Below the pieces are notes generated by a model. It searched no databases. It saw only the letters and a program-made list of their open reading frames with translations, and was not told the DNA's origin. The translations under genes were made by a program, and so were the position numbers. 38,379 nt of DNA from NCBI GenBank assembly GCA_021740745.1, contig JAIOZF010000023.1:1-38379 (forward strand), read 5' to 3'. This document shows, in pieces, positions 3,374 to 38,379 of the stretch (positions within the stretch are counted from its first letter, which is position 1; every line of letters starts with the position of its first letter). This DNA is from Crocinitomicaceae bacterium. Lineage in GTDB: Bacteria > Bacteroidota > Bacteroidia > Flavobacteriales_D > Crocinitomicaceae.

Positions 3374-4666
3374 ATGCACGTTTACAATTGGGGACTAATT
3401 ATCTTATTTATTTTGGGTGTTTCAAGAACAAATGCTCAAACTCAAAAAGGATATAAAATTGATACAACACAATTGTATTCAACCTACTGTTTTTTGCATC
3501 AAAACCCAGAATTAAGCGGAAATGAAATTGAAACATCTTCCCTGCTTAAACGTGAATTACTTGAACTCGGATTTACGATAGTCGATTCACTTGGATTAAA
3601 CAGTTTTGCAGGTGTTTTGAAAAATGGCAAGGGACCAACGATTTTATACCGCACAGATATGGACGCATTACCGATTCTTGAAACAACAGGAGTCGGTTTT
3701 GCATCGTCAAAAACCGATAATAGTACAGGGAAGCAACTTCCAATCATGCATGCTTGTGGACACGATTTTCACATGACAACGTGGTTAGGCGTTGCTAAAA
3801 CATTAGTTACTAATAAGAAGAAATGGAAAGGAACGATTATCCTTTTAGCGCAATCTTCTGAAGAAACTGGTCAAGGAGCTAAAGGTATCGTTAAAGCTAG
3901 TAACTTCGGAAAACTTCCAACAGCAGATTATCAAATTGCTATTCATGACACACCAGATTTAATGACTGGTACTTTTGGATTTTGTGATGAATATAGCATG
4001 GCAGCTGTTGATATGATGAACATCACAATTCTTGGTAGAGGCGGCCATGGCGCTGAACCTTTTAAGACAATTGATCCAATTTTGTTAAGCGCCAATTTTA
4101 TCCAAGAAATTCAAGGCATCGTTAGTCGAAATTTAGCATTCAATAATCCCGCTGTGATCACAGTAGGCGCTATAAATGGTGGAACGGTTGGAAATATTAT
4201 TCCTAATTCTGTAGAACTAAAATTAACCATTCGTACCTTTTCGCCTGAAAACAGAGCGTATATTCTGAAACGAATTGAGGAAATTGGAAATAATCTTGCC
4301 TTAGCGGCTGGTTTAAGCGAGAATGAACTTCCAGATTATAAGTTATTAGACATGTCTATTCCTCCGGTTTACAATAATCCTGCGCTCGGAGAACTGCTTC
4401 AAAAATCGATTTCTAACACTTCGAAAAGCAATTCAATTGTTAAGGTATTACCTAAAATGATTGGTGAAGATTTTGGAATTTATTCTAATTCAAATACAAT
4501 CCCGAGTTATTTAATTTGGGCCGGGGTGAAATCGCCCATTAATACTACTGAAAATACTTCAGGCTCATTGCATTCTAGCACATTTCTTCCTGACTATAAA
4601 TCGGCTTTACCATTAACAGTCGAAGCAATAACAAACTGTTTAATTGATTTATTTATTAAGAACTAA
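3374..4666 (+). CDS. Secreted M20-family amidohydrolase
   Basis: 430-residue metal-dependent amidohydrolase of the M20 (M20D-like) group, which cleaves N-acyl amino acids or related amides. A signal peptide (MHVYNWGLIILFILGVSRTNA) predicts export. Metal and catalytic motifs are RTDMDALPI (about 93-101), MHACGHDFHMT (H126, C128, H130) and the acidic pair E163-E164 in AQSSEETGQG. The dimerisation domain begins around GRGGHGAEPF, and IGEDFG lies near the C-terminus. Length is normal for the family. It is the third gene of the kinase-YceI operon. Its TAA stop overlaps the TAG stop of the opposing acetyltransferase gene within the bases CTAA at 4663-4666. The true substrate cannot be read from the sequence. 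Confidence 0.92.
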   Translation: MHVYNWGLIILFILGVSRTNAQTQKGYKIDTTQLYSTYCFLHQNPELSGNEIETSSLLKRELLELGFTIVDSLGLNSFAGVLKNGKGPTILYRTDMDALPILETTGVGFASSKTDNSTGKQLPIMHACGHDFHMTTWLGVAKTLVTNKKKWKGTIILLAQSSEETGQGAKGIVKASNFGKLPTADYQIAIHDTPDLMTGTFGFCDEYSMAAVDMMNITILGRGGHGAEPFKTIDPILLSANFIQEIQGIVSRNLAFNNPAVITVGAINGGTVGNIIPNSVELKLTIRTFSPENRAYILKRIEEIGNNLALAAGLSENELPDYKLLDMSIPPVYNNPALGELLQKSISNTSKSNSIVKVLPKMIGEDFGIYSNSNTIPSYLIWAGVKSPINTTENTSGSLHSSTFLPDYKSALPLTVEAITNCLIDLFIKN

Positions 4667-7745: not shown

Positions 7746-8801
7746 TTAGAATTTCCAATCGTGCTTGTCTAATTCAGATACACACGCCACCAACAAATCG
7801 ATACTTCCTTGAATATCTTCTTTGTGGGCCATTTCAATTACTTGATGCAAATGACGTGTTGGAATAGAAACTGCACCAGCGATTGAACCACCTTCTGTCA
7901 TGCGTTGAATACCAGCCGTGTCTGTTCCTCCAGCTGTTAAAATTTCAGGTTGCCACTTGATTTTATGTTTCGTAGCCGTTTTTTTCATGTATTCTACCAT
8001 GCGGTAATCACAAATGGTTGAAGCATCCATAATTTTAATGGCTGTTCCTTCTCCCAATTTTGTAATCATTTCATGGGCTGCAGCGCCAGGTAAATCAAAA
8101 GCAATTGTTGTATCCAATCCGAAGCCAAAATCTGGATTGATGCGCAGAGCAGATACGTTTGCCCCTCTAATTCCTACTTCTTCTTGCACTGTGAACACAC
8201 CATAAATATCGTAAGGAACTTTTTTTCCTTTCAATTTTTTCAAGGTTTCAATCAAAATAAAAACTGCCAAACGATTATCCAAGGATTTACCGTTCACACA
8301 ATTTCCCATTTCAATAAATTCTCGTTCACGCGTGATTGGGTTTCCAATTTCAACCAACTCCTTAACCTCTTCTGCACTCAAACCTGTATCGATGAAATAG
8401 TCTGAAAGTTTAGCCACCTTCTCGCGTTCAGCAGCGGTCATCACATGAATAGGTTTTGAGGCCATAACGCCAATCACATCCTTTTTTCCATGTATAATAA
8501 CGCGCTGAGCTGTAAGTGTTTTTGGATCAAATCCACCCAAGGTATGAAAACGTATAAATCCTTTATCGTCAATGTGTGTCACCATGAATCCAATTTCGTC
8601 CATGTGCGCACCAACCATTACCTTTTTTCGGTCTTTCGCTGTACCATATTTCACGGCATAAATATTACCCATGTTATCTAGTTCCACATGATCAGTTAAT
8701 CCTTTCAATTCCTTTAAGACTAACTCTCTGATTTTCTTCTCAAATCCAGGTGCACCAGGTGTAGTGCATATTTTATTTAAAAGGGCAGTGTTTATTGGCA
8801 T
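7746..8801 (-). CDS. M42 family metallopeptidase
   Basis: 351-residue cytosolic aminopeptidase of the M42 family (glutamyl aminopeptidase / tetrahedral TET type), which trims peptides at the N-terminus using two metal ions. Expected ligands and catalytic residues are visible: H66 and D68 (VGAHMDEIGF), bridging D175 (KSLDNRLAV), the E207-E208 pair (TVQEEVGIRGA), D230 (GFGLDTTIAFD) and the C-terminal H317/H319 (PTRHLHQ). The ATG at 8801 was chosen because the family begins here (MPINTALLNKICTTPGAPGF). An in-frame extension up to 8909 runs through a repeat-derived spacer and looks noncoding. It diverges from radA and is followed by a hairpin terminator. A decayed fragment of a second copy lies at 1-172. 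Confidence 0.95.
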   Translation of the reverse strand: MPINTALLNKICTTPGAPGFEKKIRELVLKELKGLTDHVELDNMGNIYAVKYGTAKDRKKVMVGAHMDEIGFMVTHIDDKGFIRFHTLGGFDPKTLTAQRVIIHGKKDVIGVMASKPIHVMTAAEREKVAKLSDYFIDTGLSAEEVKELVEIGNPITREREFIEMGNCVNGKSLDNRLAVFILIETLKKLKGKKVPYDIYGVFTVQEEVGIRGANVSALRINPDFGFGLDTTIAFDLPGAAAHEMITKLGEGTAIKIMDASTICDYRMVEYMKKTATKHKIKWQPEILTAGGTDTAGIQRMTEGGSIAGAVSIPTRHLHQVIEMAHKEDIQGSIDLLVACVSELDKHDWKF

Positions 8802-8835
8802 CTTGTTGTTGTTTTTATAAAAGTACAAATTATTT

Positions 8836-8892
8836 CGGCATCTCGACTCCGCTCGATGACCTCCTAATTTTCCGCTCGATGACCTCCTAATT
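8836..8892. repeat. Short REP-like tandem repeat
   Basis: The 21-base unit CCGCTCGATGACCTCCTAATT occurs twice in tandem (8849-8869 and 8872-8892) with a 23-base period. The first copy is preceded by TCTCGACTCCGCTCGA, a small palindrome-like sequence of the kind seen in intergenic repeats of Bacteroidota genomes. It lies between the divergent M42 and radA genes. An in-frame reading upstream of the M42 start passes through it, which is one reason to reject that longer start. Confidence 0.7.
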
Positions 8893-8981
8893 CCCCTTAT
8901 GCTTTCCAACTAAAATTGAGTTCGATATATACAAAGAATAGTAGCATTTTTCTTTTTACCTTTATACCTTATCGAATAAAA

Positions 8982-24815: not shown

Positions 24816-27176
24816 CTACCCTGAGCACATTTCACAACCTTCTGGATCGTCCAATGAACATGCGATAGCAGCTTGTTGATCTTCTACTGTTTGAGCAACA
24901 GGCATTTCAGTTACAGTCTTTTCAACGGTAAACTTAATTGCATCTGTTGCTGCTTTTGTTCTTAAATAATACATACCTGTTTTCAATCCTTTCTCCCATC
25001 CGTAGAAATGCATTGATGTTAATTTTCCGAAGTTTGCGTTTTCCATGAAAATATTCAATGACTGCGATTGGCAAATGTATGCTCCACGGTCAGCAGCTTG
25101 ATCGATAATCGCTTTTTGCGAAATCTCCCATGCTGTTTTGTACAAATCTTTCAAGTTTTGCGGCACTTCATTGATGTTTTGAACTGAACCATTTGCTTGC
25201 ATGATTTTTTGACGCATGTCTTTGTTCCACAAACCAGCTTTTACTAAATCTTTCAATAAATGCTTGTTTACGATAATGAACTCACCAGACAATACACGAC
25301 GCGTGTATATGTTTGATGTGTATGGTTCAAAGCATTCGTTGTTACCAAGAATTTGAGCTGTAGATGCTGTTGGCATAGGCGCTAACAACAATGAGTTTCT
25401 AACTCCGTATTGCTTCACCTCTTCTTTCAACACATCCCATTCCCAACGACTTGTTGGTGTTACATTCCACATATCATACTGGAAAATTCCTTTTGATACC
25501 GGTGAACCTGCAAATGTTTCGTATGGTCCTTCCACTTTCGCTAAATCTTTTGAAGCGGTCATTGATGCATAATAGATTGTTTCGAAAACCTCTCTATTCA
25601 ATGCTCTTGCTTCTTCTGACTCAAATGGTAATCCCATCATGATGAATGCATCAGCCAATCCTTGAACGCCTAATCCAATTGGACGGTGACGCATGTTCGA
25701 ATTTTGAGCTTCAATTACTGGGTAGTAATTTTCATCAATGATTCTATTCAAGTTGATTGTAGCCTGGTAAGTAACTTCAAATAATTTATCGTGATCGAAA
25801 GTACCTTCTTCAGTTACATATTTCGGCAAAGCCAATGAAGCTAAGTTACAAACTGCCACCTCATCTGGTGCTGTGTACTCGATAATCTCTGTACACAAGT
25901 TTGAAGACTTGATTGTACCAAGGTTTTGTTGATTTGATTTTGCATTCGCAGCATCTTTGTACAACATGTAAGGCGTACCTGTTTCAATTTGAGATTCCAA
26001 AATTTTGAACCACAAATCTTGTGCTTTGACAGTTTTACGTCCTTTGCCTTCGTTTTCGTAACGTGTATATAATTCTTCAAATGCAGCACTATGTGTATCA
26101 GAAAGTCCAGGACATTCGTGAGGACACATTAAGGTCCAATCACCATTTTCCTTTACGCGTTTCATGAATAAATCTGGAATCCAAAGTGCGAAGAATAAAT
26201 CACGTGCACGTTGTTCTTCTTTTCCGTGGTTCTTTTTCAAGTCCAAGAAATCGAAAACATCAGCATGCCAAGGTTCAATATACATTGCAAAAGAACCTTT
26301 TCTTTTACCACCACCTTGATCAACGTAACGAGCAGTATCATTGAATACTCTTAGCATTGGTACGATACCATTTGAAGTACCGTTTGTTCCTTTAATATAT
26401 GATCCTGTTGCACGGATATTGTGAATAGCTAAACCAATACCACCAGCTGATTGAGAAATCTGAGCGCAAGATTTCAATGTATCATAAATTCCACTAATGC
26501 TATCATCTTTCATTGTTAACAAGAAACAAGAAGACATTTGTGGTTTTGGAGTACCAGAATTAAATAATGTTGGAGTAGCATGTGTGAACCAACCTTCCGA
26601 CATTAAATTATATGTTTTGATAGCTTCTTGGATATTCGATTTGTGAATACCAACAGCTACTCTCATCAACATTTGTTGCGGACGTTCAACGATTTGTCCA
26701 TCCAATTTCATCAAATATGAACGCGTCAACGTTTTAAATCCGAAATAATCGTATCTAAAATCGCGATCATAAATAATACTTGAATCCAATGCTTCCTTAT
26801 TATCCATGATAATTTGGTAAACATCTTCAGCAACTAATGATGCGTTTTGACCAGTTTTTGGATCGATGTATTTGAACATATCTTCAATTACTTCAGAGAA
26901 CGTTTTCTTCGTTTCCTTGTGTAAGTTAGATACGGCAATACGTGATGCTAATAAAGCATAATCCGGGTGATCAATCGTTTTTGCGGCTGCAACTTCAGCT
27001 GCAAGGTTGTCCAACACAGTTGTTGTAACACCATCATAAATCCCTTCGATTACCTTCATGGCAACCACTTCTGGTGTAACCAATGGGTCAAGACCATAGC
27101 ACATTTTCACAATACGTGCTGTTATCTTGTCGAACTTGACAGCCTCCTTTCGGCCGTCTCTTTTTACTACATACAT
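24816..27176 (-). CDS. nrdA: Ribonucleoside-diphosphate reductase, alpha subunit
   Basis: 786-residue class Ia large subunit, which reduces ribonucleoside diphosphates to deoxy forms in the cytoplasm. An N-terminal ATP-cone (about 1-90, [18 protein letters not shown]) gives the overall activity switch. The ten-stranded barrel has the substrate cysteine pair ([21 protein letters not shown]) and the active-site N426, C428 and E430 (SSNLCTEI). The radical-transfer tyrosines are Y736-Y737 ([12 protein letters not shown]). The tail ends in the redox pair C781 and C784 (CEMCSG), re-reduced by thioredoxin or glutaredoxin. The gene starts 34 bases after nrdB in the order nrdB-nrdA. All key residues are present, so the enzyme should be active. 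Confidence 0.97.
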
Positions 27177-27210
27177 GGGCGCTCGTTTAATTTTTGTTTA
27201 ATTCAATTTT

Positions 27211-28191
27211 TTAAAATTCTTCTTCAGTACTGAATGTGTGATTGTCTTTCCCGGACGACAATACACCAGCTTTCTGATATTCTGCAACTCTTTTTTCAAA
27301 GAAATTCGTTTTTCCTTGAATAGAAATCATATCCATAAAGTCAAACGGATTTGAAACATTGTATACCTTATCGTTTCCTAACTCTTGCAATAATCGATCA
27401 GCCACGAACTCGATGTATTGTTTCATTAGGTCACTATTCATTCCAATTAATTTTACTGGAAGGGCGTCTGTAACAAATTCTTTTTCAATTTCAACAGCAT
27501 CCATGATAATCTCTTGCACCTGCGCTTTTGACAATTGATTCACCAAATGTTTTGTGTACAAAAGGCAAGCGAAATCACAATGCAAACCTTCATCACGAGA
27601 AATCAATTCGTTTGAGAATGAAAGTCCAGGCATTAACCCTCTCTTCTTCAACCAGAAGATTGAACAAAAAGAACCTGAAAAGAAAATCCCTTCTACTGCA
27701 GCGAATGCAACTAAACGCTCTGCAAAAGAGCCATTATCAATCCAACGCAAAGCCCATTCTGCTTTCTTGCGCACACAATCGATTGTGTCAATTGCGTTAA
27801 ACAAGTTATTCTTATCAGCAGTGTCTTTGATGTAGGTATCAATCAACAATGAATACGTTTCTGAGTGAATATTCTCAATCGCCACCTGAAATCCGTAAAA
27901 GAACTTTGCTTCAGTATACTGAACTTCTGACAGGAAATGCTCTGCTAAATTTTCGTTAACAATACCATCAGATGCAGCGAAAAATGCAAGAATATGTTTA
28001 ACGAAATGGCGTTCATCATCATTTAATTTTGTTTCCCAGTCAATAAGATCTGGTGATAAGTCGATTTCTTCTGCCGTCCAAAAACTTGCTTCAGCCTTTT
28101 TATAAAAAGACCAAATGTCATCGTGTTGAATCGGGAAAAGAACAAACCGGTTATTGTTCCCTTCTAAAATCGGTTCTGCTTGTTGTGCCAT
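27211..28191 (-). CDS. nrdB: Ribonucleoside-diphosphate reductase, beta subunit
   Basis: 326-residue ferritin-like small subunit that makes the tyrosyl radical for nrdA. The di-iron ligands and radical tyrosine are visible: E106 and H109 with Y113 in [13 protein letters not shown], and the second half-site around EGIFFSGSF and [14 protein letters not shown]. The sequence around the radical site ([20 protein letters not shown]) resembles the eukaryotic R2 type more than the Escherichia coli one, as in many Bacteroidota. The C-terminus ([10 protein letters not shown]) is the acidic and aromatic tail that docks on the alpha subunit. It leads the nrdB-nrdA operon; the long spacer upstream holds several candidate control sites. 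Confidence 0.97.
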
Positions 28192-28632
28192 TTTCGTATA
28201 AATATTAATAGTGTATTATTCCATTGATGAAAAGTGTGATTTTTCATCATTGTTAACAAACCGCTAAGTTTTTTTGTTTCCTCTCAGTGTGAAATTCAAT
28301 CAGTAGCATTGAATTCATTTTGTAAGTTGAGGCATACAAAAGTTGTCAAAAAACTCACCTTTCGCAATTAAAGAAATTCACAATCTTTCAATGTTATTAA
28401 CATCCGTAGATTCAAACCCTTTAAGCATAGTGGATACCGACTTTATCAACATTTTTTTTAAAAATATTCACAGTCAAGTATGTATGATTTGTCGATAAAT
28501 TTTTTCTATTCGTCAAATGCCTGACTTCAAAGCACTTTGTGAATATTTCACTAAATTTAGCGTAGATTTAAACCAATATCAATTATAAAAAATTGTTATT
28601 TTGAACACAACATTGTGAATAGTAAATAGACC
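28192..28632. promoter_or_regulatory. Regulatory spacer between nrdB and comF
   Basis: 441 bases without a gene, very AT-rich. Next to nrdB is a perfect 9-bp inverted repeat, TGATGAAAA-N7-TTTTCATCA (28225-28249), in its leader or promoter. Further out are sequences close to the DnaA box TTATCCACA: TTATCAACA (28443-28451, 8 of 9), TTATCGACA (complement of 28490-28498, 8 of 9), ATATTCACA (28464-28472 and complement of 28538-28546) and CTATTCACA (complement of 28614-28622), with a weaker AAATTCACA at 28374-28382. GTGAATATTTCAC (28539-28551) is itself a small palindrome. No perfect -7 box was found for either gene, and no NrdR box pair was recognised. Confidence 0.45.
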
Positions 28633-29370
28633 ATGCACTACAACAAGGAAAAGACAAATTTTAACTTAACTAAATTAACAATTCTAGCAAAAGATATTGT
28701 TGAATTAATTCTGCCATCGACGTGTTTGATTTGTCAAAACGAACTCACTCGACAAGAAAAATTTTGTTGTTCTCTTTGCTTCAACGATTTGCAATTTACG
28801 CATTTTGAAAAGTTCAACGAACCAACTCCAATGGACCAATTGTTTTGGGGTCGATCACAAATTCACTCCACCTTTGCGCTATTAGACTATGAAAAAGGAA
28901 AGTCCACCCAAGTATTATTGCACGAGTTAAAGTATAATAACAATCCAGCTTTAGGTCAATTTTTAGGAGAACTAATTGCTAAAAAATTAAAAAACACGGC
29001 AATTCTTCAGGGTATCGATGCCTTAGTTCCTGTGCCTATTCATCATCGCAAACGCTTTACACGCGGTTACAACCAAAGTGAAGAGATTGCAAAAGGGATC
29101 TCTAAAAGTTCACTTATTCCAATTCAAACAAAATTCATCGCAAAATCATCGCATGTTGGAAGTCAAACCAAACGTGGAAGATTTCTCCGCTGGGATAATG
29201 TTTCGGATAATTTTTCACTATCCAAAAACAAACCTTCAACACTGCAACACATTGCAATAATTGATGACGTTGTAACAACAGGAGCAACAATAGAAGCGAT
29301 GGTAGCCTCTATCCACAAAACTTTTCCGAACCTTCGAATCACTATTATCAGTTTAGCCATAACCAAATAA
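28633..29370 (+). CDS. ComF family phosphoribosyltransferase-like protein
   Basis: 245-residue ComF-type protein. The N-terminal half has two CxxC pairs of a zinc ribbon (STCLICQNEL, CCSLCFNDL). The C-terminal half is a type I phosphoribosyltransferase fold with LVPVPIHHRKRFTRGYNQSEEIA and the PRPP-binding loop IAIIDDVVTTGATIEA. Members take part in uptake of transforming DNA, acting beside the ssDNA-handling machinery, and some may act on nucleotides. Its own role here is inferred from the family. It diverges from nrdB across a 441-base spacer. No other competence gene is in the window. Confidence 0.92.
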   Translation: MHYNKEKTNFNLTKLTILAKDIVELILPSTCLICQNELTRQEKFCCSLCFNDLQFTHFEKFNEPTPMDQLFWGRSQIHSTFALLDYEKGKSTQVLLHELKYNNNPALGQFLGELIAKKLKNTAILQGIDALVPVPIHHRKRFTRGYNQSEEIAKGISKSSLIPIQTKFIAKSSHVGSQTKRGRFLRWDNVSDNFSLSKNKPSTLQHIAIIDDVVTTGATIEAMVASIHKTFPNLRITIISLAITK

Positions 29371-29516
29371 GTTTTTATCTGTGAAATTGGGTTTCTATTA
29401 AGGCAAATCTTGGACGTGATTTAGTTTCAGACAACTTACGTTTGGCAGAAGTGAAATTAATACAACTAAAAACGCGTTATCTTTACGTTTCAATAAGTTA
29501 AGCAATTACAAAGTAA

Positions 29517-30578
29517 ATGAATCAACAACATTATTTGATTGTAGGAGCGGGATTATCTGGGATCTGCGTTGCTGAGCAATTAATGAGCAAAAATCAACGC
29601 GTTAGTATTATTGATTCCAACGAAAACAAAAGCTCCATTGTCGCTGCTGGACTTATTAATCCACTGGTTTTTAGAAGAATGGCTAAATCATGGCGTGTAG
29701 ACGAATTGTTGCCCTATGCCCAAGATTTTTATCGCAAATTGGAACAAAAAACAGCTCAAGAATTTTATCATGAAATAGTCATTCGTCGCTTTTTCTCTTC
29801 TGAACAAGAGAGGGGTTTTTGGGAAAAGAAACAGACTGAAGATGAGTATCTCGATTATATGTTTCCCCTAACTGAAGAGGATAAAAACTATTCTGAATTC
29901 AATCTAAAAAACGACTATGGATCGGCTCGTGTAAAGCAATCAGCTTGGGTAAATGCGTCTGTTTTTCTATCAGAAATGCATGAAGAGTTAAAAGCTATTT
30001 GCACTTTTTTTTCTGAAAAATTCGATTATTCGTTGCTTGATACTGAAAAAGCAGTTTATAAAGGAATTGCTTATGATGGGATTATATTTTGTGAAGGTTA
30101 TATGGCACAATTCAATCCTTGGTTTGGTGATTTACCGATTCAAAGTACTAAAGGTGAAGTGTTAACAATTCATTCAACTGATTTACCAATGAATGAATCT
30201 ATTAATCGCAAATGCTTTGTTCTTCCTATTTCGTCATCTACATATAAAGTTGGTTCAACCTATAAATGGGAAACACCAGACACTATTCCTACTGAGGAAG
30301 GTAAACAAGAATTAATTGATCATTTTCATTATTTAAGTGATATTGAACCGAAAATTTTGGAACACGATGCAGGAATTCGACCTACAACTTTGGATAGAAG
30401 ACCAATAATAGGAAGACACGAATTGTTTCCTAAACTATCCATTTTCAATGGAATGGGTGCCAAAGGTTATTTAATTGCGCCCTTATTATCAAAAGAGTTT
30501 GCTGATTACCTTGTTGATGATCAGCCATTATTGAGAGAAATAGATATCCAACGAATCAAAAAAAATAGTTCTCAATGA
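29517..30578 (+). CDS. FAD-dependent oxidoreductase (DAO family)
   Basis: 353-residue flavoprotein of the glycine/D-amino-acid oxidase family. The N-terminus carries the dinucleotide-binding motif HYLIVGAGLSGICVAEQL, followed by VSIIDSNENKSS. A second nucleotide-contact segment is DGIIFCEGYMAQFNPWF, and the C-terminal GIRPTTLDRRPIIGRH and FNGMGAKGYLIAPLLSKEF are the usual FAD-closing region. Bacteroidota proteins of this type oxidise small amines or amino acids; the substrate cannot be assigned. No signal peptide, so cytoplasmic. A 146-base spacer after comF holds a 7-of-8 -7 box (TATCTTTA, 29478-29485). Confidence 0.85.
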   Translation: MNQQHYLIVGAGLSGICVAEQLMSKNQRVSIIDSNENKSSIVAAGLINPLVFRRMAKSWRVDELLPYAQDFYRKLEQKTAQEFYHEIVIRRFFSSEQERGFWEKKQTEDEYLDYMFPLTEEDKNYSEFNLKNDYGSARVKQSAWVNASVFLSEMHEELKAICTFFSEKFDYSLLDTEKAVYKGIAYDGIIFCEGYMAQFNPWFGDLPIQSTKGEVLTIHSTDLPMNESINRKCFVLPISSSTYKVGSTYKWETPDTIPTEEGKQELIDHFHYLSDIEPKILEHDAGIRPTTLDRRPIIGRHELFPKLSIFNGMGAKGYLIAPLLSKEFADYLVDDQPLLREIDIQRIKKNSSQ

Positions 30579-30603
30579 TTTCAAAACGGTACGCGCTTAT
30601 TCG

Positions 30604-30611
30604 TAAATTTG
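30604..30611 (+). promoter_or_regulatory. -7 promoter box for the bacilliredoxin gene
   Basis: TAAATTTG is a full match to TAnnTTTG, 22 bases before the bacilliredoxin ATG and past the stop of the oxidoreductase gene. The -33 element is not clear. It suggests the bacilliredoxin gene can be transcribed on its own. Confidence 0.5.
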
Positions 30612-30633
30612 TACACAATTAAAATTCAAACAT

Positions 30634-31047
30634 ATGTATCCACCAGAATTAGTCAAACCAATGAAAGCAGATCTTACCAACGTAGGATTTCAGGAATTAA
30701 CATCATCACAAGACGTTGATCACTATATTCAAAATGCAAAAGGAAGTTTTTTACTTGTTGTAAACTCGGTTTGTGGCTGTGCAGCAGGGAACATGCGTCC
30801 CGGTGTAAAGCATTCATTAAACCACAGTAAAAAACCTGTTGGACTTGCTACAGTTTTTGCTGGAGTAGATTCAGAAGCAACGGCTCAAGCTCGTAAGTAC
30901 TTTTTGCCGTATCCTCCATCATCACCTTGCGTTGCATTATTCAATGATGGTAAATTAGTCCATTTCTTAGAAAGACACAATATTGAAGGAGTAACTGCGC
31001 AAATGATTGCTGAAAATCTGGCTGCTGCTTACGATGAATATTGTTAA
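30634..31047 (+). CDS. BrxA/BrxB family bacilliredoxin
   Basis: 137-residue thioredoxin-fold protein of the YphP/YqiW family. The active site is a CGC motif (NSVCGCAAGNMRPGV, C47 and C49), and the surrounding sequence (KPVGLATVFAGVDSEATAQA, YPPSSPCVALFNDGKLVHFL) is typical. Bacilliredoxins remove bacillithiol from S-bacillithiolated proteins after oxidative stress. Some Bacteroidota make bacillithiol, so this organism may too; its synthesis genes are not in the window. It follows the FAD oxidoreductase after a short spacer with its own promoter-like box and ends in a hairpin terminator. Confidence 0.94.
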   Translation: MYPPELVKPMKADLTNVGFQELTSSQDVDHYIQNAKGSFLLVVNSVCGCAAGNMRPGVKHSLNHSKKPVGLATVFAGVDSEATAQARKYFLPYPPSSPCVALFNDGKLVHFLERHNIEGVTAQMIAENLAAAYDEYC

Positions 31048-31109: not shown

Positions 31110-34100
31110 TTATCTGAGCAGGTTGACATGACCTACATATTCTTCTTTACTGTCATTATCAATGTTTTTAAGAATGATTTTCCATGTATAAGTACCATCC
31201 TGGCTTCGTTCTCCGTTGTACGTTCCGTCCCAACCAACAGCTTGATCATGTGATTCAAAGATTAGTTGACCCCAGCGGTTGAAAATGAATAATGAATACC
31301 CGTCTTTACTAAAACCAGATGAAATAACTGGGAAGAATTCGTTATTATATTCATCTCCATCTGGAGTAAACGTATTTGGAACATAAATAATCAGATCTTC
31401 CTTAACTGTAATAATTCTCAAAGTTGAGTCAATACAACCATATTGTGATATCGCATATAACCAAACATTATACAATGTTCCATTTTCAACAATTGGGAAT
31501 TCATGATAAGGATTTTCATCCGCAGATAATGGGCTTTCATCACCAAAGTTCCAGAAGTAATCCGTTGCATTAATTGAACTATTGGTGAAATTAACACCTG
31601 GATTTGTCAATGAAACTTCATATTGATTTGGTGAAAAACTTGCAATAGGATTCGGAACAATACAGATAAAGTCAGTCATTGATGCTTCATTAACGCACCC
31701 TTCGGGAGTAATAACAGTTAATTGCACATCATAACATGTTTCAACTGAAGCGAATGAAATACTTATTGGTCCGCATTCATTAACCACTTGACCATCTGAA
31801 AAAACCCAGGTACATGAGCTACTTGCATCCGACTGTGCATCTATTGTAACAGCATTTCCTTCACAACTGTAAATTACATCTGGTAAATTAAGATCCGGTA
31901 ATGGATTTGCGTCCAAAATTACTGTTCCAGAAGCAACACAGCCATTGATATCTGTAACAACGACATCCGTTTGACCTACGCCTAAATTTGAGACTTGCGG
32001 CGTTGTTGCAACTGGAGTTGTGCTCCATGCGTAAGAATACGCTTGTGTACCACCAGTAGTATATGTGTCCACAATACCATCTGTGGCTCCAATGCAACTA
32101 ACAGCTTCTCCAAAATAATTAGAAATGATAATAGGTGTTAAAATTAATTCATCAGGCTCAGTAACGACCACTGGCGAACTATAGGTGCAACCATTTATAT
32201 CCGTAATTAACACTTGATAAATTCCTGCTCCAACATTACTTTGATCGATACCTGTTCCAATAACGTTTCCAGCGCTATTAATCCATTCATAGGTGTATGT
32301 TGGTGTTCCTCCTGAAGAGATAACTGTTAATCCACCATCAGTTGCACCAAAACAACTCACATCTTGGCCATTATAATTAGATGTAACATCTGGTACTCCT
32401 AAAAGTATCGGTGGTTCTGTTAAGGTTATTGAAGTAGAGAAGGTACAGCCATTCAAATCAGTTGTTAGAACAGTATACACGCCAGCTGGCAATCCATTTG
32501 GATCTTGAATTGAAGAAACGGTTGTCCCTAAATTATTTGTCCAATTGTAATCATAAGCAGGTGTGGCACCTGTAACGGTTAAATCAATTCCACCATCAGA
32601 CGCTCCAAAACATGAGATATCTTGTCCGTTATAGTCGGTAGAAACAAGCACACCAAAATTGTAAGCTGGCGGGTCCACCAAGGTTACCGTTGTTGTTGAT
32701 GTACATCCATTTTGATCTGTTACAACAACCGTGTAAAGTCCTGAAGGTAAGTTGCTAACGGCTTGATTTGTACTAATTAGAGTATTAAAGATGTCTGTCC
32801 ATTGATAAGTATATCCTGGTGATCCACCACTAGGTGTTACATCAATACTTCCATCTGAGGCGCCAAAACATGAGATATCTTGACCGTTGTAATCAGAGGT
32901 AACTTGTGCAATTGTTTCGACAACTGGCGCGGCAACTAATGTAGTATCTACTGTTAATTGACATCCATTTGCATCAGTGATAATTACAGAATAAGTGCCT
33001 GCAGGTAAATTTGCAAGGTCTTGCGTTGGCGCTCCATTGTTCCAAGTATAGTTATATCCTGGTATACTTCCTGATACAGTAAGATCAATAGTACCATCAC
33101 TTTCACACCCTGTAACATTAAAACCACCAATATAACTCGATATAACTTGAGAATATGTCAACGCTGTTGGTTCCGTTAATGTAATTGATGCAGTAATTTC
33201 ACATCCATTTATATCGGTAACTGTAACATCATATATACCTACAGGCAAGTTTGATAAATCTTGGTTTGTTGAACCAGTATTCCAAACATAAGTATAACCA
33301 GGACTACCTCCACCAATTGTTAAATCAACACTTCCATCACTCAATCCAAAACAACTAATATTATTCCCTCCAATAAATGTTGGAGACGAAGTTGCCTCAG
33401 TTAAAATGGTCGGTTGGTTCAAGGTGATTCCAGAAGTGATGGTACAACCATTAATATCTGTTACCAATACACTATAAGCCCCAACTGGCAAAGAAGATAA
33501 ATCTTGCGAAACTGCTCCAGTATTCCACAGATATGTATACCCTGGATTACCCCCTCCAATTGTTAAATCAACACTTCCATCGCTCAATCCAAAACAGCTA
33601 ATATTATTTCCACTAGGGTATGTAAATGCCGTTATGCCTTGAGTTAATGCGGTCGGTTCAACTAATGTAATTGTAGAAGGCAGAACACATCCATTTAAAT
33701 CTGTGATTACTACTGAATAAGTTCCGGCAAGTAAGTTCGAAAGATCTTGTGTTGTTGCTCCATTGCTCCAATTGTATGTATAACCTGGCGAGCCATTGTT
33801 AACAGATAAATCTATTGAGCCATCATTAAATCCAAAACATGAAATATTTGTTCCACTTGGGTAAGTGAATGCTGAAATAGTTTGTGTTAATGCAGTTGGT
33901 TCGTTTAATGTAATAGAAGAGTTTATTGTACAGCCATTCAAATCCGTCGTTATAACTGTATATGTGCCAGCAGACAAATCACTGATATCTTGTGTAATAG
34001 CACCAGTGCTCCATAAATAAGTATATCCAGCGCTTCCACCTGTAACAGATAGGTTAACACTTCCATCACTAAACCCAAAACAACTAATATTATTTCCGCT

Positions 34101-37100
34101 TGGGTATGTTAATGCTACCGTTCCTTCAGATAAAGCAGTTGGTTGAATTAATGTAATTGTTGATGGAATGGTACATCCATTAATGTCCGTTACAAGAACC
34201 GAATAAGTCCCTGCGGGTAATCCTGTTATATCTTGAGTTAAACCTCCATTACTCCAAACATACGTGTAACCAGGATTACCACCTCCAATTGTCAAATCAA
34301 TGCTACCATCACTTAATCCAAAACAAGAAATATTTGATCCACTTGGGTACGTAAATGCAGTTACGGCTTGAGTTAATGCTGTAGGTTGAGTCAACGTAAT
34401 TGTACTAACGATTTGACATCCATTAAGGTCTGTGACCGTCACGCTGTATACTCCTGCTGGAACATTTGTTAAGTCTTCAGAAGTAGCCCCTGTATTCCAA
34501 GAGTATGTATAAGGCGTTACGCCTCCACCAATTGTTAAATCAATTGAACCATCACTCAATCCAAGACAGCTAATATTTGTCCCACTTGGATAGGTAAATG
34601 CAGATATACTTTCTGTCATTACAAGTGGCTGTGTTAATGTTACCGAATTAGTTGTTTGACATCCATTTACATCTGTAATTGTTACTGAATACGTTCCTGC
34701 TGGCAATGATGAAATATCTTCGTTATTTGATCCATTTGACCATGCATATGAATATCCTGGATTTCCACCGCTAACTGTTAAATCGATAGATCCATCTGGT
34801 AAACAACCAGAAACATTAAATCCGCCTGGATAAACAAAAGGGGCAAGTCCTGAAGTCAAATCAGCAGGTTCCGTTAGTGTAATTGAAGAAGGAATTGAAC
34901 ATCCATTCGCGTCTGTAATAATTATATTGTATGTTCCAGCCGTTAAACCAGATATATCTTGAGTAACAGCGCCATTTGACCATAGATAAGTGTATGTGGG
35001 ATTTGCACCATTAACAGTCAAGTCAATTGAACCATCACTCAAACCAAAACAACTAATATTCGTTCCGCTTGGGTAGGTCACAGCTGTAATCCCTTGAGTT
35101 AATGCGGTTGGTTGCGTAAGTGTTATAGTAGATGGAATTGAACAGCCGTTCACATCAGTTACAATTACACTATACGTTCCTGCAATCAGTGATGTTAAAT
35201 CTTGAGTAACCGCTCCGTTTGACCAAGCGTACGTATAACCTGGATTACCACCTCCGATTGTTAAATCGATGGAACCGTCATTTAAACCAAAACAACTAAT
35301 GTTCGTTCCACTTGGGTAGGTAAATGCTGCTATCCCTTGGTTTAAAGCAGTTGGTTCTGTTAATGTTATTGAAGATGGAATCGCACAACCATTAATGTCT
35401 GTAACAACAACATTGTATGTACCAACTGTTAAAGCCGTTAAATCTTCTGTTGCTTCTCCGTTTGACCAAACAAAGGTATAGCCTGGGTTGCCACCTCCGA
35501 TTGTTAAATCAATTGAGCCGTCATTTAAACCAAAACAACTAATGTTCGTTCCACTTGGGTAAGTAAATGCTGCTATCCCCTGGGTTAATGCAGTTGGTTG
35601 CGTTAATGTTATTGAAGATGGAATTGTACAACCGTTCACATCAGTTATAACTACACTATATGTTCCTGCAATCAGTGTTGTTAAATCTTGAGTAACAGCT
35701 CCGTTTGACCAAACGTACGTATAACCTGGATTACCACCTCCGATTGTTAAATCGATGGAGCCGTCATTTAAACCAAAACAACTGATATTCGTTCCACTTG
35801 GGTATGTCACAGCTGTAATTCCCTGAGTTAATGCGGTTGGTTGCGTTAATGTTATTGAAGATGGAATTGTACAACCGTTCAAGTCAGTTATCACTACACT
35901 ATATGTTCCTGCAATCAGGGTTGTTAAATCTTGAGTAACAGCTCCGTTTGACCAAGCGTAAGTATAACCCGGATTACCACCTCCGATTGTTAAATCGATT
36001 GAGCCGTCATTTAAACCAAAACAACTTATGTTCGTTCCGCTTGGGTATGTCACAGCTGTAATTCCTTGAGTTAAAGCAGTTGGTTGCGTTAATGTTATTG
36101 AAGATGGGATTGTACAACCGTTAACATCAGTTATCACTACACTATATGTTCCTGCAATCAGCGCTGTTAAATCTTGAGTAACAGCTCCATTTGACCAAAC
36201 GTAAGTATAACCTGGATTACCACCTCCAATTGTCAAATCAATAGAACCATCATTTAAGCCAAAACAACTAATGTTCGTTCCGCTTGGATAAGTAACAGCT
36301 GTAATTCCTTGTGTTAATGCTGTTGGTTGCGTGAGTGTTATAGTAGATGGAATTGTACAACCGTTCAAATCTGTCACTGTAACACTATAAGTGCCAGCTG
36401 GTACATTTGTCAAATCCTGTGCAATTGATCCATTACTCCACGAATAGGTATATCCAGGATTTCCGCCGATTATAGATAAATCAATATTTCCATCGCTTAG
36501 TCCAAAACAACTGATATTTGTTCCACTCTGATAAACAGTCGCAGTAATAGATTGGCCTAATGCAGGAGGTTGAATAAGTGTTATTGAACTTGCAATTTGA
36601 CAGCCATTTGCGTCAGTCACAACCACGCTATATGTTCCAAATGGCAATCCTGATAAATCCTCCGTAATAGCCCCAGTGTTCCATAAATATGTATAATCTG
36701 GTGTTCCACCACCAATAGTTAAGTTTATATTTCCATCACTTAAGCCAAAACAACTAATATTGGTTCCACTAAGGAAGGTTGTAGCAGTTATTGTTTCAGT
36801 TAAGTTAACTGGTTGAGTTAATAATACAGCACTTGAAGTTTGACATCCATTAATATCCGTTACTGTAACAATATAATTTCCTCCAATCAAGGTATTTATA
36901 TTCTGAGTAACAGCACCATTTGACCAACTATATGTATAACCAGGATTTCCTCCATTAACTGTTAAATCAATAAAACCATCAGCAACACATCCCGAAACAT
37001 TAAATCCGCCAGCATAAACGGATGGTGTTAAACTTGATGTTATAGCGGTTGGTTGTATTAGGGTAATTGAACTTGTAATTTGACAACCGTTTGCGTCAGT

Positions 37101-38379
37101 TACTGTTACATTATATGTTCCAGCGGGTACGTTTGATAAATCTTGAGTAATCGCGCCGTTACTCCAACTATAGGTATACAAAGGTGTGCCGCCACCAATT
37201 ATCAAATCTATTGAGCCATCGCTTAATCCAAAACAGCTAATATTCGTACCACTTGGATAAACGAAAGCTGAAATTGATTCAGTTAATGGATTTGGAGATG
37301 TTAAAACTACAGAACTCGTAGTTTGGCAGCCATTTATATCTGTAACAGTAACAGAATAATTTCCAGCTGCTAAAGCTGCTATATCCTGAGATATTGAACC
37401 GTTTGACCAAACGTAGGTATAACCGGGATTACCTCCTCCAACTGTAAGGTCAATTGCGCCGTTGCTCAAACATCCCGTTGTATTAAATCCACCAACGTAA
37501 AGTGCAGGAACAAGACCTGAGCTTAGTAAAGCTGGTTGCGTTAATGTTATTGACGAAAGTATCGTACATCCATTTAAGTCAGTAATCGTAACTGAGTAAG
37601 TCCCTGCCGGAACATTGGACAGGTCTTCTGAAACTGCACCATTACTCCATAAATATGTATAACCTGGATTACCACCCCCAATTGTCAAGTTAACAGATCC
37701 ATCACTTAAACCAAAGCAACTTATATTGGTTCCACTTGGATAAGTAAATGCAGTAACGTTTTGTGTTAATACTGTAGGCTGTGTTATAGTAACAGTTAAA
37801 GTTGCAGCACACCCTCCCGTGATACCATTCGCATCGTTAACATTTACAGTATACGTTCCCGCAGCCAAACCTGTTAAATCTTGGGTAATTGCACCATTTG
37901 ACCATGAATAAGTATAAGGTGCTGTTCCTCCTGCTGGTGTTAAGTCGATGGATCCAGTTGTTGCTCCATTACATAAAACATTCACTTGCGTAGAACTCAA
38001 TGTTAATGCAGCCGCTGGTTGTGTTATTGTAACAGTTGTTGTTGCTGTACAACCGCCAGTAGTTCCATTCGCATCGTTCACAACAACAGTATATGTTCCC
38101 GCTATAATGCCTGATAAATCTTGGGAAATTGCTCCATTTGACCATGTGTAAGTGTATGGTGTTGTCCCTCCTGAAGGTGTTAAATTAATCGCCCCGGTGC
38201 TGGCTCCAAAACACAACACATTCGTTTGTGATGTTATTAACGTTAGTGGCGCTAATGGTTGAGTGATGGTAACCGTTGTTGTTGCTGTACAACCACCAGA
38301 TGATCCATTCGCATCTGTAACAATTACAGTATATGTCCCAGCTGCTAAACCAGATAAGTCTTCCGATGTCGCTCCATTA
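31110..38379 (-). CDS. Giant SprB-repeat surface protein, T9SS type B (5' end missing)
   Basis: The reading frame is open through the window end, so the N-terminus is outside; 2422 residues are visible. From the visible N-terminus there are part of one and then 26 complete SprB repeats of about 80 residues. The core reads roughly ISCFGLSDGSIDLTIGGG, then PGYTY-x-WSNGA, AGTYSV, TDxNGC and SITLTQP. A divergent region with two cysteine-containing Ig/PKD-like segments follows (EGNAVTIDAQSD; PIASFSPNQYEVSL to DYFWNFGDESP), and the last 90 or so residues are a gliding-motility-associated type B sorting domain (YVPNTFTPDGDEYNNEFF, YSLFIFNRWGQLIFES, GWDGTYNGE, DGTYTWKI). SprB of Flavobacterium johnsoniae is a mobile adhesin moved along the cell surface; a similar adhesin role is inferred. 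No PorP/SprF-type partner gene is in the window. Any start codon inside this span is only a codon of a repeat. Confidence 0.95.
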   Translation of the reverse strand, partial: NGATSEDLSGLAAGTYTVIVTDANGSSGGCTATTTVTITQPLAPLTLITSQTNVLCFGASTGAINLTPSGGTTPYTYTWSNGAISQDLSGIIAGTYTVVVNDANGTTGGCTATTTVTITQPAAALTLSSTQVNVLCNGATTGSIDLTPAGGTAPYTYSWSNGAITQDLTGLAAGTYTVNVNDANGITGGCAATLTVTITQPTVLTQNVTAFTYPSGTNISCFGLSDGSVNLTIGGGNPGYTYLWSNGAVSEDLSNVPAGTYSVTITDLNGCTILSSITLTQPALLSSGLVPALYVGGFNTTGCLSNGAIDLTVGGGNPGYTYVWSNGSISQDIAALAAGNYSVTVTDINGCQTTSSVVLTSPNPLTESISAFVYPSGTNISCFGLSDGSIDLIIGGGTPLYTYSWSNGAITQDLSNVPAGTYNVTVTDANGCQITSSITLIQPTAITSSLTPSVYAGGFNVSGCVADGFIDLTVNGGNPGYTYSWSNGAVTQNINTLIGGNYIVTVTDINGCQTSSAVLLTQPVNLTETITATTFLSGTNISCFGLSDGNINLTIGGGTPDYTYLWNTGAITEDLSGLPFGTYSVVVTDANGCQIASSITLIQPPALGQSITATVYQSGTNISCFGLSDGNIDLSIIGGNPGYTYSWSNGSIAQDLTNVPAGTYSVTVTDLNGCTIPSTITLTQPTALTQGITAVTYPSGTNISCFGLNDGSIDLTIGGGNPGYTYVWSNGAVTQDLTALIAGTYSVVITDVNGCTIPSSITLTQPTALTQGITAVTYPSGTNISCFGLNDGSIDLTIGGGNPGYTYAWSNGAVTQDLTTLIAGTYSVVITDLNGCTIPSSITLTQPTALTQGITAVTYPSGTNISCFGLNDGSIDLTIGGGNPGYTYVWSNGAVTQDLTTLIAGTYSVVITDVNGCTIPSSITLTQPTALTQGIAAFTYPSGTNISCFGLNDGSIDLTIGGGNPGYTFVWSNGEATEDLTALTVGTYNVVVTDINGCAIPSSITLTEPTALNQGIAAFTYPSGTNISCFGLNDGSIDLTIGGGNPGYTYAWSNGAVTQDLTSLIAGTYSVIVTDVNGCSIPSTITLTQPTALTQGITAVTYPSGTNISCFGLSDGSIDLTVNGANPTYTYLWSNGAVTQDISGLTAGTYNIIITDANGCSIPSSITLTEPADLTSGLAPFVYPGGFNVSGCLPDGSIDLTVSGGNPGYSYAWSNGSNNEDISSLPAGTYSVTITDVNGCQTTNSVTLTQPLVMTESISAFTYPSGTNISCLGLSDGSIDLTIGGGVTPYTYSWNTGATSEDLTNVPAGVYSVTVTDLNGCQIVSTITLTQPTALTQAVTAFTYPSGSNISCFGLSDGSIDLTIGGGNPGYTYVWSNGGLTQDITGLPAGTYSVLVTDINGCTIPSTITLIQPTALSEGTVALTYPSGNNISCFGFSDGSVNLSVTGGSAGYTYLWSTGAITQDISDLSAGTYTVITTDLNGCTINSSITLNEPTALTQTISAFTYPSGTNISCFGFNDGSIDLSVNNGSPGYTYNWSNGATTQDLSNLLAGTYSVVITDLNGCVLPSTITLVEPTALTQGITAFTYPSGNNISCFGLSDGSVDLTIGGGNPGYTYLWNTGAVSQDLSSLPVGAYSVLVTDINGCTITSGITLNQPTILTEATSSPTFIGGNNISCFGLSDGSVDLTIGGGSPGYTYVWNTGSTNQDLSNLPVGIYDVTVTDINGCEITASITLTEPTALTYSQVISSYIGGFNVTGCESDGTIDLTVSGSIPGYNYTWNNGAPTQDLANLPAGTYSVIITDANGCQLTVDTTLVAAPVVETIAQVTSDYNGQDISCFGASDGSIDVTPSGGSPGYTYQWTDIFNTLISTNQAVSNLPSGLYTVVVTDQNGCTSTTTVTLVDPPAYNFGVLVSTDYNGQDISCFGASDGGIDLTVTGATPAYDYNWTNNLGTTVSSIQDPNGLPAGVYTVLTTDLNGCTFSTSITLTEPPILLGVPDVTSNYNGQDVSCFGATDGGLTVISSGGTPTYTYEWINSAGNVIGTGIDQSNVGAGIYQVLITDINGCTYSSPVVVTEPDELILTPIIISNYFGEAVSCIGATDGIVDTYTTGGTQAYSYAWSTTPVATTPQVSNLGVGQTDVVVTDINGCVASGTVILDANPLPDLNLPDVIYSCEGNAVTIDAQSDASSSCTWVFSDGQVVNECGPISISFASVETCYDVQLTVITPEGCVNEASMTDFICIVPNPIASFSPNQYEVSLTNPGVNFTNSSINATDYFWNFGDESPLSADENPYHEFPIVENGTLYNVWLYAISQYGCIDSTLRIITVKEDLIIYVPNTFTPDGDEYNNEFFPVISSGFSKDGYSLFIFNRWGQLIFESHDQAVGWDGTYNGERSQDGTYTWKIILKNIDNDSKEEYVGHVNLLR
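31900..38379 (-). repeat. SprB tandem repeat array
   Basis: Twenty-six complete units and a partial one of about 240 bases each. In the central block the period is exactly 243 bases (81 residues): the sequence TTTAAACCAAAACAACT or a near copy starts at 35281, 35524, 35767, 36010 and 36253. Units in this block are almost identical in protein and close in DNA, while units towards either end diverge, forming distinct N-terminal, central and C-terminal sequence classes. The array will be prone to length change by recombination and to assembly collapse. Confidence 0.93.

Follow-up and report, generated by a model that had tools for sequence, protein, structure and literature searches.

Probable growth by internal recombination of one segment in a conserved SprB-repeat array of a Crocinitomicaceae bacterium

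The occurrence of consecutive, almost identical units in the middle of the SprB-repeat array of a Crocinitomicaceae bacterium raises the question of how they arose, and of whether the array changed in length when they did. The initial annotation of this DNA had proposed a recent event, either tandem duplication or gene conversion, in the middle of an otherwise older array, and had considered length variation between strains likely. The window analysed here is an entire contig (38,379 nucleotides) of a metagenome assembly of 3.03 Mb in 137 contigs, and it contains the gene together with the following features:

31110..38378, minus strand: SprB-repeat protein gene (PF13573), 2422 aa visible, 5' end off the contig
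31113..31385, minus strand: type IX secretion type B C-terminal sorting domain (TIGR04131)
24816..31047, strand mixed or not given: syntenic neighbours, namely RNR large and small subunits, ComF-like, ThiO-like and bacilliredoxin

The frame at 31110-38378 is unbroken throughout its 2422 aa and open at the contig end. It matches the SprB profile PF13573 with 826.8 bits over 25 stretches (cut-off 28), which places the product among SprB-repeat proteins, and its C-terminus matches TIGR04131 with 47.7 bits (cut-off 35). The same genome encodes SprA (2455.5 bits, contig C80) and GldJ (494.4 bits with its neighbours in frame, contig C78), thus the secretion route is present. The C-terminal domain, of the Bac_Flav_CTERM / CHU_C class, combined with the translocon gene SprA, assigns the protein to the type B cargo of type IX secretion. 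SprF is encoded beside SprB. No PorP/SprF-like partner was found on the contig, and 18 PorP-family matches are located elsewhere in the genome; the visible neighbours of the gene are housekeeping genes only, and its 5' side is beyond the contig, where an upstream partner could sit. With housekeeping genes only and no PorP partner, the neighbourhood was dropped as a clue to function. Based on its sequence, the protein is predicted to be a type IX-secreted stalk of Ig-like SprB repeats, and we do not propose it as an orthologue of the gliding adhesin SprB, which travels along the cell and is required for gliding, and for which an adjacent PorP/SprF-like gene would be expected. A better candidate for an SprB/SprF-like pair would be the locus L004 (G000:C48, 1394-3714), whose product likewise carries SprB repeats and a type B sorting domain and which is immediately followed by a PorP-family gene. 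In G000, at least six short stretches resembling the DNA of the middle block described below occur in the 2817-aa frame at 40975-44612 of C94, which is part of another repeat protein. At 8848-8892 of the window, a 23-base unit is present in two perfect tandem copies, around the start of the minus-strand frame 7746-8909.

A search of genome contigs retrieved four sister species of the genus (G2, G8, G4 and G21; loci L021-L024, one genome per species) at 62-67% C-terminal identity, plus distant ones. The sister-species genomes are MAGs labelled Crocinitomicaceae, Flavobacteriales or Chitinophaga, whose sample-like names suggest a freshwater origin. Synteny is conserved between the window and the four sister contigs, the adhesin gene being followed by genes for bacilliredoxin, ThiO-like, ComF-like, NrdB, NrdA, DUF3109 and NusA, with 91-94% identity of NrdA between the window and the sister species. 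The orthologues are 3438-3450 aa long and each possesses 33 units in the same order, with neither the domain that precedes the array in each sister-species protein nor the incomplete first unit of the window being counted. A unit finds its best match at its own position in 33/33 cases for G2/G8 and for G4/G21, and in 32/33 for G2/G4, so that homogenisation did not take place in these species. Three further loci, L025-L027 (G012, G011 and G014), lack the syntenic neighbours and were rejected as orthologues; in these paralogues, positions are conserved 19/19 in all three pairs. When the N-terminal domain of the sister-species proteins was sought in the G000 contigs, only weak repeat-level matches were obtained (best 29.2 bits), and the contig end, inside the array, did not overlap any other contig. 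Two observations concern the sister species themselves. In their 80-aa units 3-13, identity is highest at lag 3 among lags 1-7 in all four species, which points to an older three-unit duplication. Between L023 and L024 (G4/G21), identity is 99-100% at units 25-27 and 85-87% at units 5, 9 and 21, as if parts had been exchanged between strains.

The visible array of the window comprises 26 full units and a partial first one. Two types of units occur within 31923-38273, one of 81 aa (SGTNISCFGLSDG) and one of 80 aa (B type, GGFN..GC). The B units U4, U6, U15 and U22 correspond to positions 15, 17, 23 and 30 in the four sister species, position 17 being 79 aa long in two of them. From the 5' end of the gene, the units are arranged as follows:

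36828..38273, minus strand: U1-U6, old; U3-U6 correspond to sister-species units 14-17, and U1-U2 have no confident match, the candidate positions being 12-13 and 9-10
36585..36827, minus strand: U7, anchor, corresponding to sister-species unit 18 (best protein match at position 18; clade 97/94)
36342..36584, minus strand: U8, probably sister-species unit 19 (YQSG in common, otherwise ambiguous)
36099..36341, minus strand: U9, X type (5' and 3' halves both of the block)
35856..36098, minus strand: U10, X type, 94% identical to U11 (14/243 mismatches)
35613..35855, minus strand: U11, X type
35370..35612, minus strand: U12, mosaic, block-like over about the first 122 nt (to ~35491), then an old 3' part
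35127..35369, minus strand: U13, U12-like over about 51 nt at the 5' end and U11-like over the rest, with a 46-nt exact match with U11
34884..35126, minus strand: U14, mosaic, block-like over about the first 86 nt (to ~35041), then old
34644..34883, minus strand: U15, 80-aa B type, anchor, corresponding to sister-species unit 23 (best match by DNA and protein)
31923..34643, minus strand: U16-U26, old, one-to-one with sister-species units 24-34

The run of near-identical units that had drawn attention to the locus is real and corresponds to U9-U13 (35127-36341), all five of which contain the exact 20-residue motif CFGLNDGSIDLTIGGGNPGY, and the three units said to differ at a few residues are U9, U10 and U11, which differ by 1-3 of 81. 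The exact 243-base spacing is present as well, each of U9-U13 consisting of 81 codons, but it is a property of all the 81-aa units (U7-U14 and U16-U21) rather than of the block. Tandem Repeats Finder reports a period of 243 with 5.5 copies at 35029-36371. At the protein level, U13 differs from each of U9, U10 and U11 by 10 residues and U12 from the other four by 12-15; the corresponding DNA identities are 90-94% among U9-U11, 84-89% between these and U13, and 78-81% between U12 and the other four. The mean pairwise DNA identity of U9-U13 is 0.853, compared with 0.60-0.67 for the five-unit runs free of any of these units (7 of the 16 runs in U3-U22), and as good a run was obtained in 7 of 5000 shuffles of the unit order. 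The best pair of units wholly outside the block reaches 73% DNA identity. Within the block, U12 departs from its neighbours and resembles them in its first half only.

Synonymous divergence is reduced in the same four units. Their mean pS is 0.32 (0.20 for U10/U11 and 0.27-0.43 for the other pairs), compared with a mean of 0.70 for the ten outer 81-aa units that served as reference, and U12 is near this outer level, with pS values of 0.54-0.65 against the four. With a pN of only 0.04 among U9, U10, U11 and U13, the block protein has been conserved since copying. By pS the outer units are older than these four, as first proposed, but U12 is mostly not younger than the outer units. The proposed mechanism is also supported, in the form of a local duplication with recombination inside units; its recency is not, for the pS of the closest pair (0.20) is similar to that separating two species (0.18 for G4/G21). 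Among sister species, pS is 0.52 for G2/G8 and reaches a maximum of about 0.6, and between window and sister-species units it is 0.65-0.68, near saturation. Since the mean of the block is below the value of G2/G8 and all four species are almost saturated with respect to the window, the events would postdate the split from these species without being of strain age by this clock, which has wide errors, with ~60 synonymous sites per unit, and is reset by conversion.

Alignment of the unit order of the window to that of the sister species scored 2193, whereas none of 1000 permutations exceeded 1210, and the top match of a window unit is at the expected position for 16 of 20 units by protein (the misses being U1, U2, U8 and U20) and for 12 of 20 by DNA. 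The interval between the anchors U7 and U15 holds seven units in the window and four in each of the sister species, and over U3-U26, the part that can be matched confidently, these three extra units are the only difference from the sister species. None of the latter changed in copy number, all four having 33 units. In the DNA tree, positions 20, 21 and 22 each form one starred four-species clade (100/100, 99/98 and 100/94, respectively), and U9-U14 fall on one side of a branch with support 91/79, not starred. The comparison points to a lineage-specific net gain of three units at one place, a claim restricted to the interval between U7 and U15, and we infer its polarity, gain rather than loss, from the sequences. 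No outgroup carrying the U7-U15 segment was found; G022, a more distant member of the same genus, possesses a syntenic gene with a shorter and quite different array, in which a single unit resembling the 81-aa type lies between other domains. The array of G022 being so different, length does change over longer times.

The internal structure of the units bears on how the segment grew. In the pair U12/U13, 9 mismatches fall in the first 122 bases and 39 in the following 121 (LR 12.6); the counts are 7/86 then 50/157 for U11/U14 (LR 9.9), and 14/51 then 13/192 for U11/U13 (LR 7.2). Four of the 15 block pairs (U12/U13, U11/U14, U10/U14 and U11/U13) lie above all nulls, which consisted of 65 orthologue unit pairs (maximum LR 6.0) and 45 outer paralogue pairs (maximum 7.2), and two pairs (U11/U14 and U12/U13) survive a 15-fold correction in codon permutation. 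The switch points are at unit bases 51-122 and cover much of the conserved motif CFGLNDGSIDLTIGGGNPGY; given this position, the common motif marks exchange sites, and U12 and U14 retain old 3' parts. Three 3' types are left, namely X (U9, U10, U11 and U13), one in U12 and one in U14, which fits with three ancestral units. An assignment of the 3' parts of U12 and U14 to specific ancestral units among 20-22 was dropped, the sites being saturated. The mismatches among X units are staggered (14, 25 and 27-38), indicating several rounds, and a single duplication of three units was rejected, as the lag-3 pairs have 53, 30 and 57 mismatches against 25 for U9/U10 and 14 for U10/U11. The mosaicism of U12 and U14 would fit intragenic unequal recombination or template switching, in several rounds.

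Taken together, these results lead us to propose, with a probability of about 0.8, that an ancestral segment of three units grew to six in the window lineage by several rounds of intragenic recombination. The ancestor would have possessed three units, those at sister-species positions 20-22, between U8 and U15, and the segment would have been extended from three to six by unequal exchange or template switching, with switch points within the conserved unit core. The X type would have been copied three times, with old 3' parts persisting in U12 and U14; the protein would then have been kept almost unchanged by purifying selection. The scenario rests on the observed excess of units between the anchors, the mosaics and the reduced synonymous divergence; its direction, the order of the events, the machinery responsible and the lengthening of the stalk are its conjectural parts.

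The same arrangement might have been reached from the opposite direction, if six units were ancestral, the sister species lost three, and the six of the window were homogenised by gene conversion at constant copy number. The mosaics U12, U13 and U14 resemble conversion tracts, and since the sister species form one group, a single loss would be enough; but this course of events requires, besides the loss, several conversions toward one type, and sister units 20-22 are simple, distinct clades with no trace of a deletion, so that we regard it as unlikely. A model that shares with the preferred one its site of growth is about as doubtful. It supposes a fixed frame, in which selection maintains the identity and order of the units, with one growth zone around positions 19-22 that would gain units repeatedly by recombination in the unit core; losses among the 80-aa units might compensate for these gains and hold the total near 33. 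Among units 14-30, the five consecutive units most similar to each other are 18-22 in all four sister species. The first units of the window lean to positions 8-10 over 11-13 in the four species (22:13, 20:11, 23:17 and 23:20), none significantly, and a compensating loss of three units in the 80-aa part is thus not supported.

It is far less probable that the extra units are an artefact, generated when short reads belonging to several places in the array, or to co-existing strains, were joined as additional near-identical units. The contig does terminate within the array, and repetitive genes are described as difficult for short reads in PMC8201768 and PMC9704523; but false copies would be identical, and here every unit has private synonymous differences, with the frame intact. 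Exact direct repeats in the gene do not exceed 46 nt, so that longer words or reads should resolve the array, and the count of 33 units agrees in four independent sister-species assemblies. Least credible of all is that no duplication occurred and that strong selection on the protein motif made the units alike. The motif identical in five units, the low pN and the similar motifs elsewhere in the array would agree with it, but synonymous sites are alike too (pS 0.20-0.43 among U9, U10, U11 and U13, against about 0.70 outside), which refutes it for these four units; for U12, it applies partly, to the 3' half.

What the added units would contribute to the protein was considered from a structural model of two units. 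The model was obtained from an alignment of 63 of the 78 two-unit stretches, 15 from L032 being left out, and is all beta, with a pLDDT of 96.2 and a pTM of 0.77; an earlier one, with the unit register cut and a thin alignment, had a pLDDT of 54.9 and was discarded. Its top structural neighbours are solved stalk fragments of the grappling hook protein A (GhpA) from Aureispira, a lineage of Bacteroidota (9flw_A, Foldseek E 7e-6; VIA Z 9.6, rmsd 3.3, 145 aligned), followed by Salmonella SiiE and many Ig-domain adhesion chains, the next unrelated Ig chains having a Z of 8.2. Each unit thus most likely forms a single Ig-like domain in a stalk. Like the window protein as modelled, GhpA is a Bacteroidota surface stalk with an Ig-like fold arrangement, and at ~20% identity this common arrangement is no sign of a common function. 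The three extra units would lengthen the stalk slightly, and its adhesive role, like the effect of its length, is conjectured from the model.

Several known systems resemble parts of this case. The BACON repeats of crAssphage (PMC6949934) share with the window array position-specific clades, a conserved domain order and sequential internal duplications of single domains; they differ in that the window encodes a bacterial type IX surface protein, which grew in one lineage, at one place and with mosaic units. For the Periscope Proteins, which are long surface stalks of tandem folded domains, as is predicted for the window protein, changes in stalk length by intragenic recombination have been proposed (PMC8201768 and PMC9704523); the window protein differs in that its repeats are far less alike, mostly with 60-70% DNA identity (best 94%), and in that the four sister species do not vary in length. 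Periscope Proteins are defined by tandem repeats longer than 50 residues that are nearly identical in DNA, by a repeat number varying among strains of one species, and by an elongated rod of folded domains. In the window, identities of 84-94% are confined to U9, U10, U11 and U13; the sister species, with one genome each, are constant at 33 units, and the two-unit model is all beta with Ig-like neighbours. As for SprB of Flavobacterium johnsoniae (6497 aa; PMC9870892 and PMC9143113; against 2422 aa visible here and 3438-3450 in the sister species), it has in common with the window protein the SprB repeats, the type B C-terminal domain and a genome with SprA and GldJ, and differs from it in that no PorP/SprF-like gene is present on the window contig. 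A 20-base pattern of the block gave no match in viral contigs. In the open-licence literature, we found no paper on Crocinitomicaceae with SprB, and, among the matches listed, none on the evolution of SprB-repeat units and none relevant to SprB repeats and recombination or to concerted evolution of adhesins; as far as open-licence papers go, the case is apparently not in print.

The process itself is an ordinary one in a well-resolved case, in which a domain array conserved elsewhere would have grown from within through recombination. Its interest is twofold. It provides a dated, position-resolved example of a change in stalk length in Bacteroidota, in which three domains would have been gained at one place while four sister species keep the rest of the array unit for unit. 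It also carries a warning, based on U12, in which the motif is present and the synonymous sites of the second half are nearly saturated: identical motifs in adjacent repeats need not mean recent duplication.
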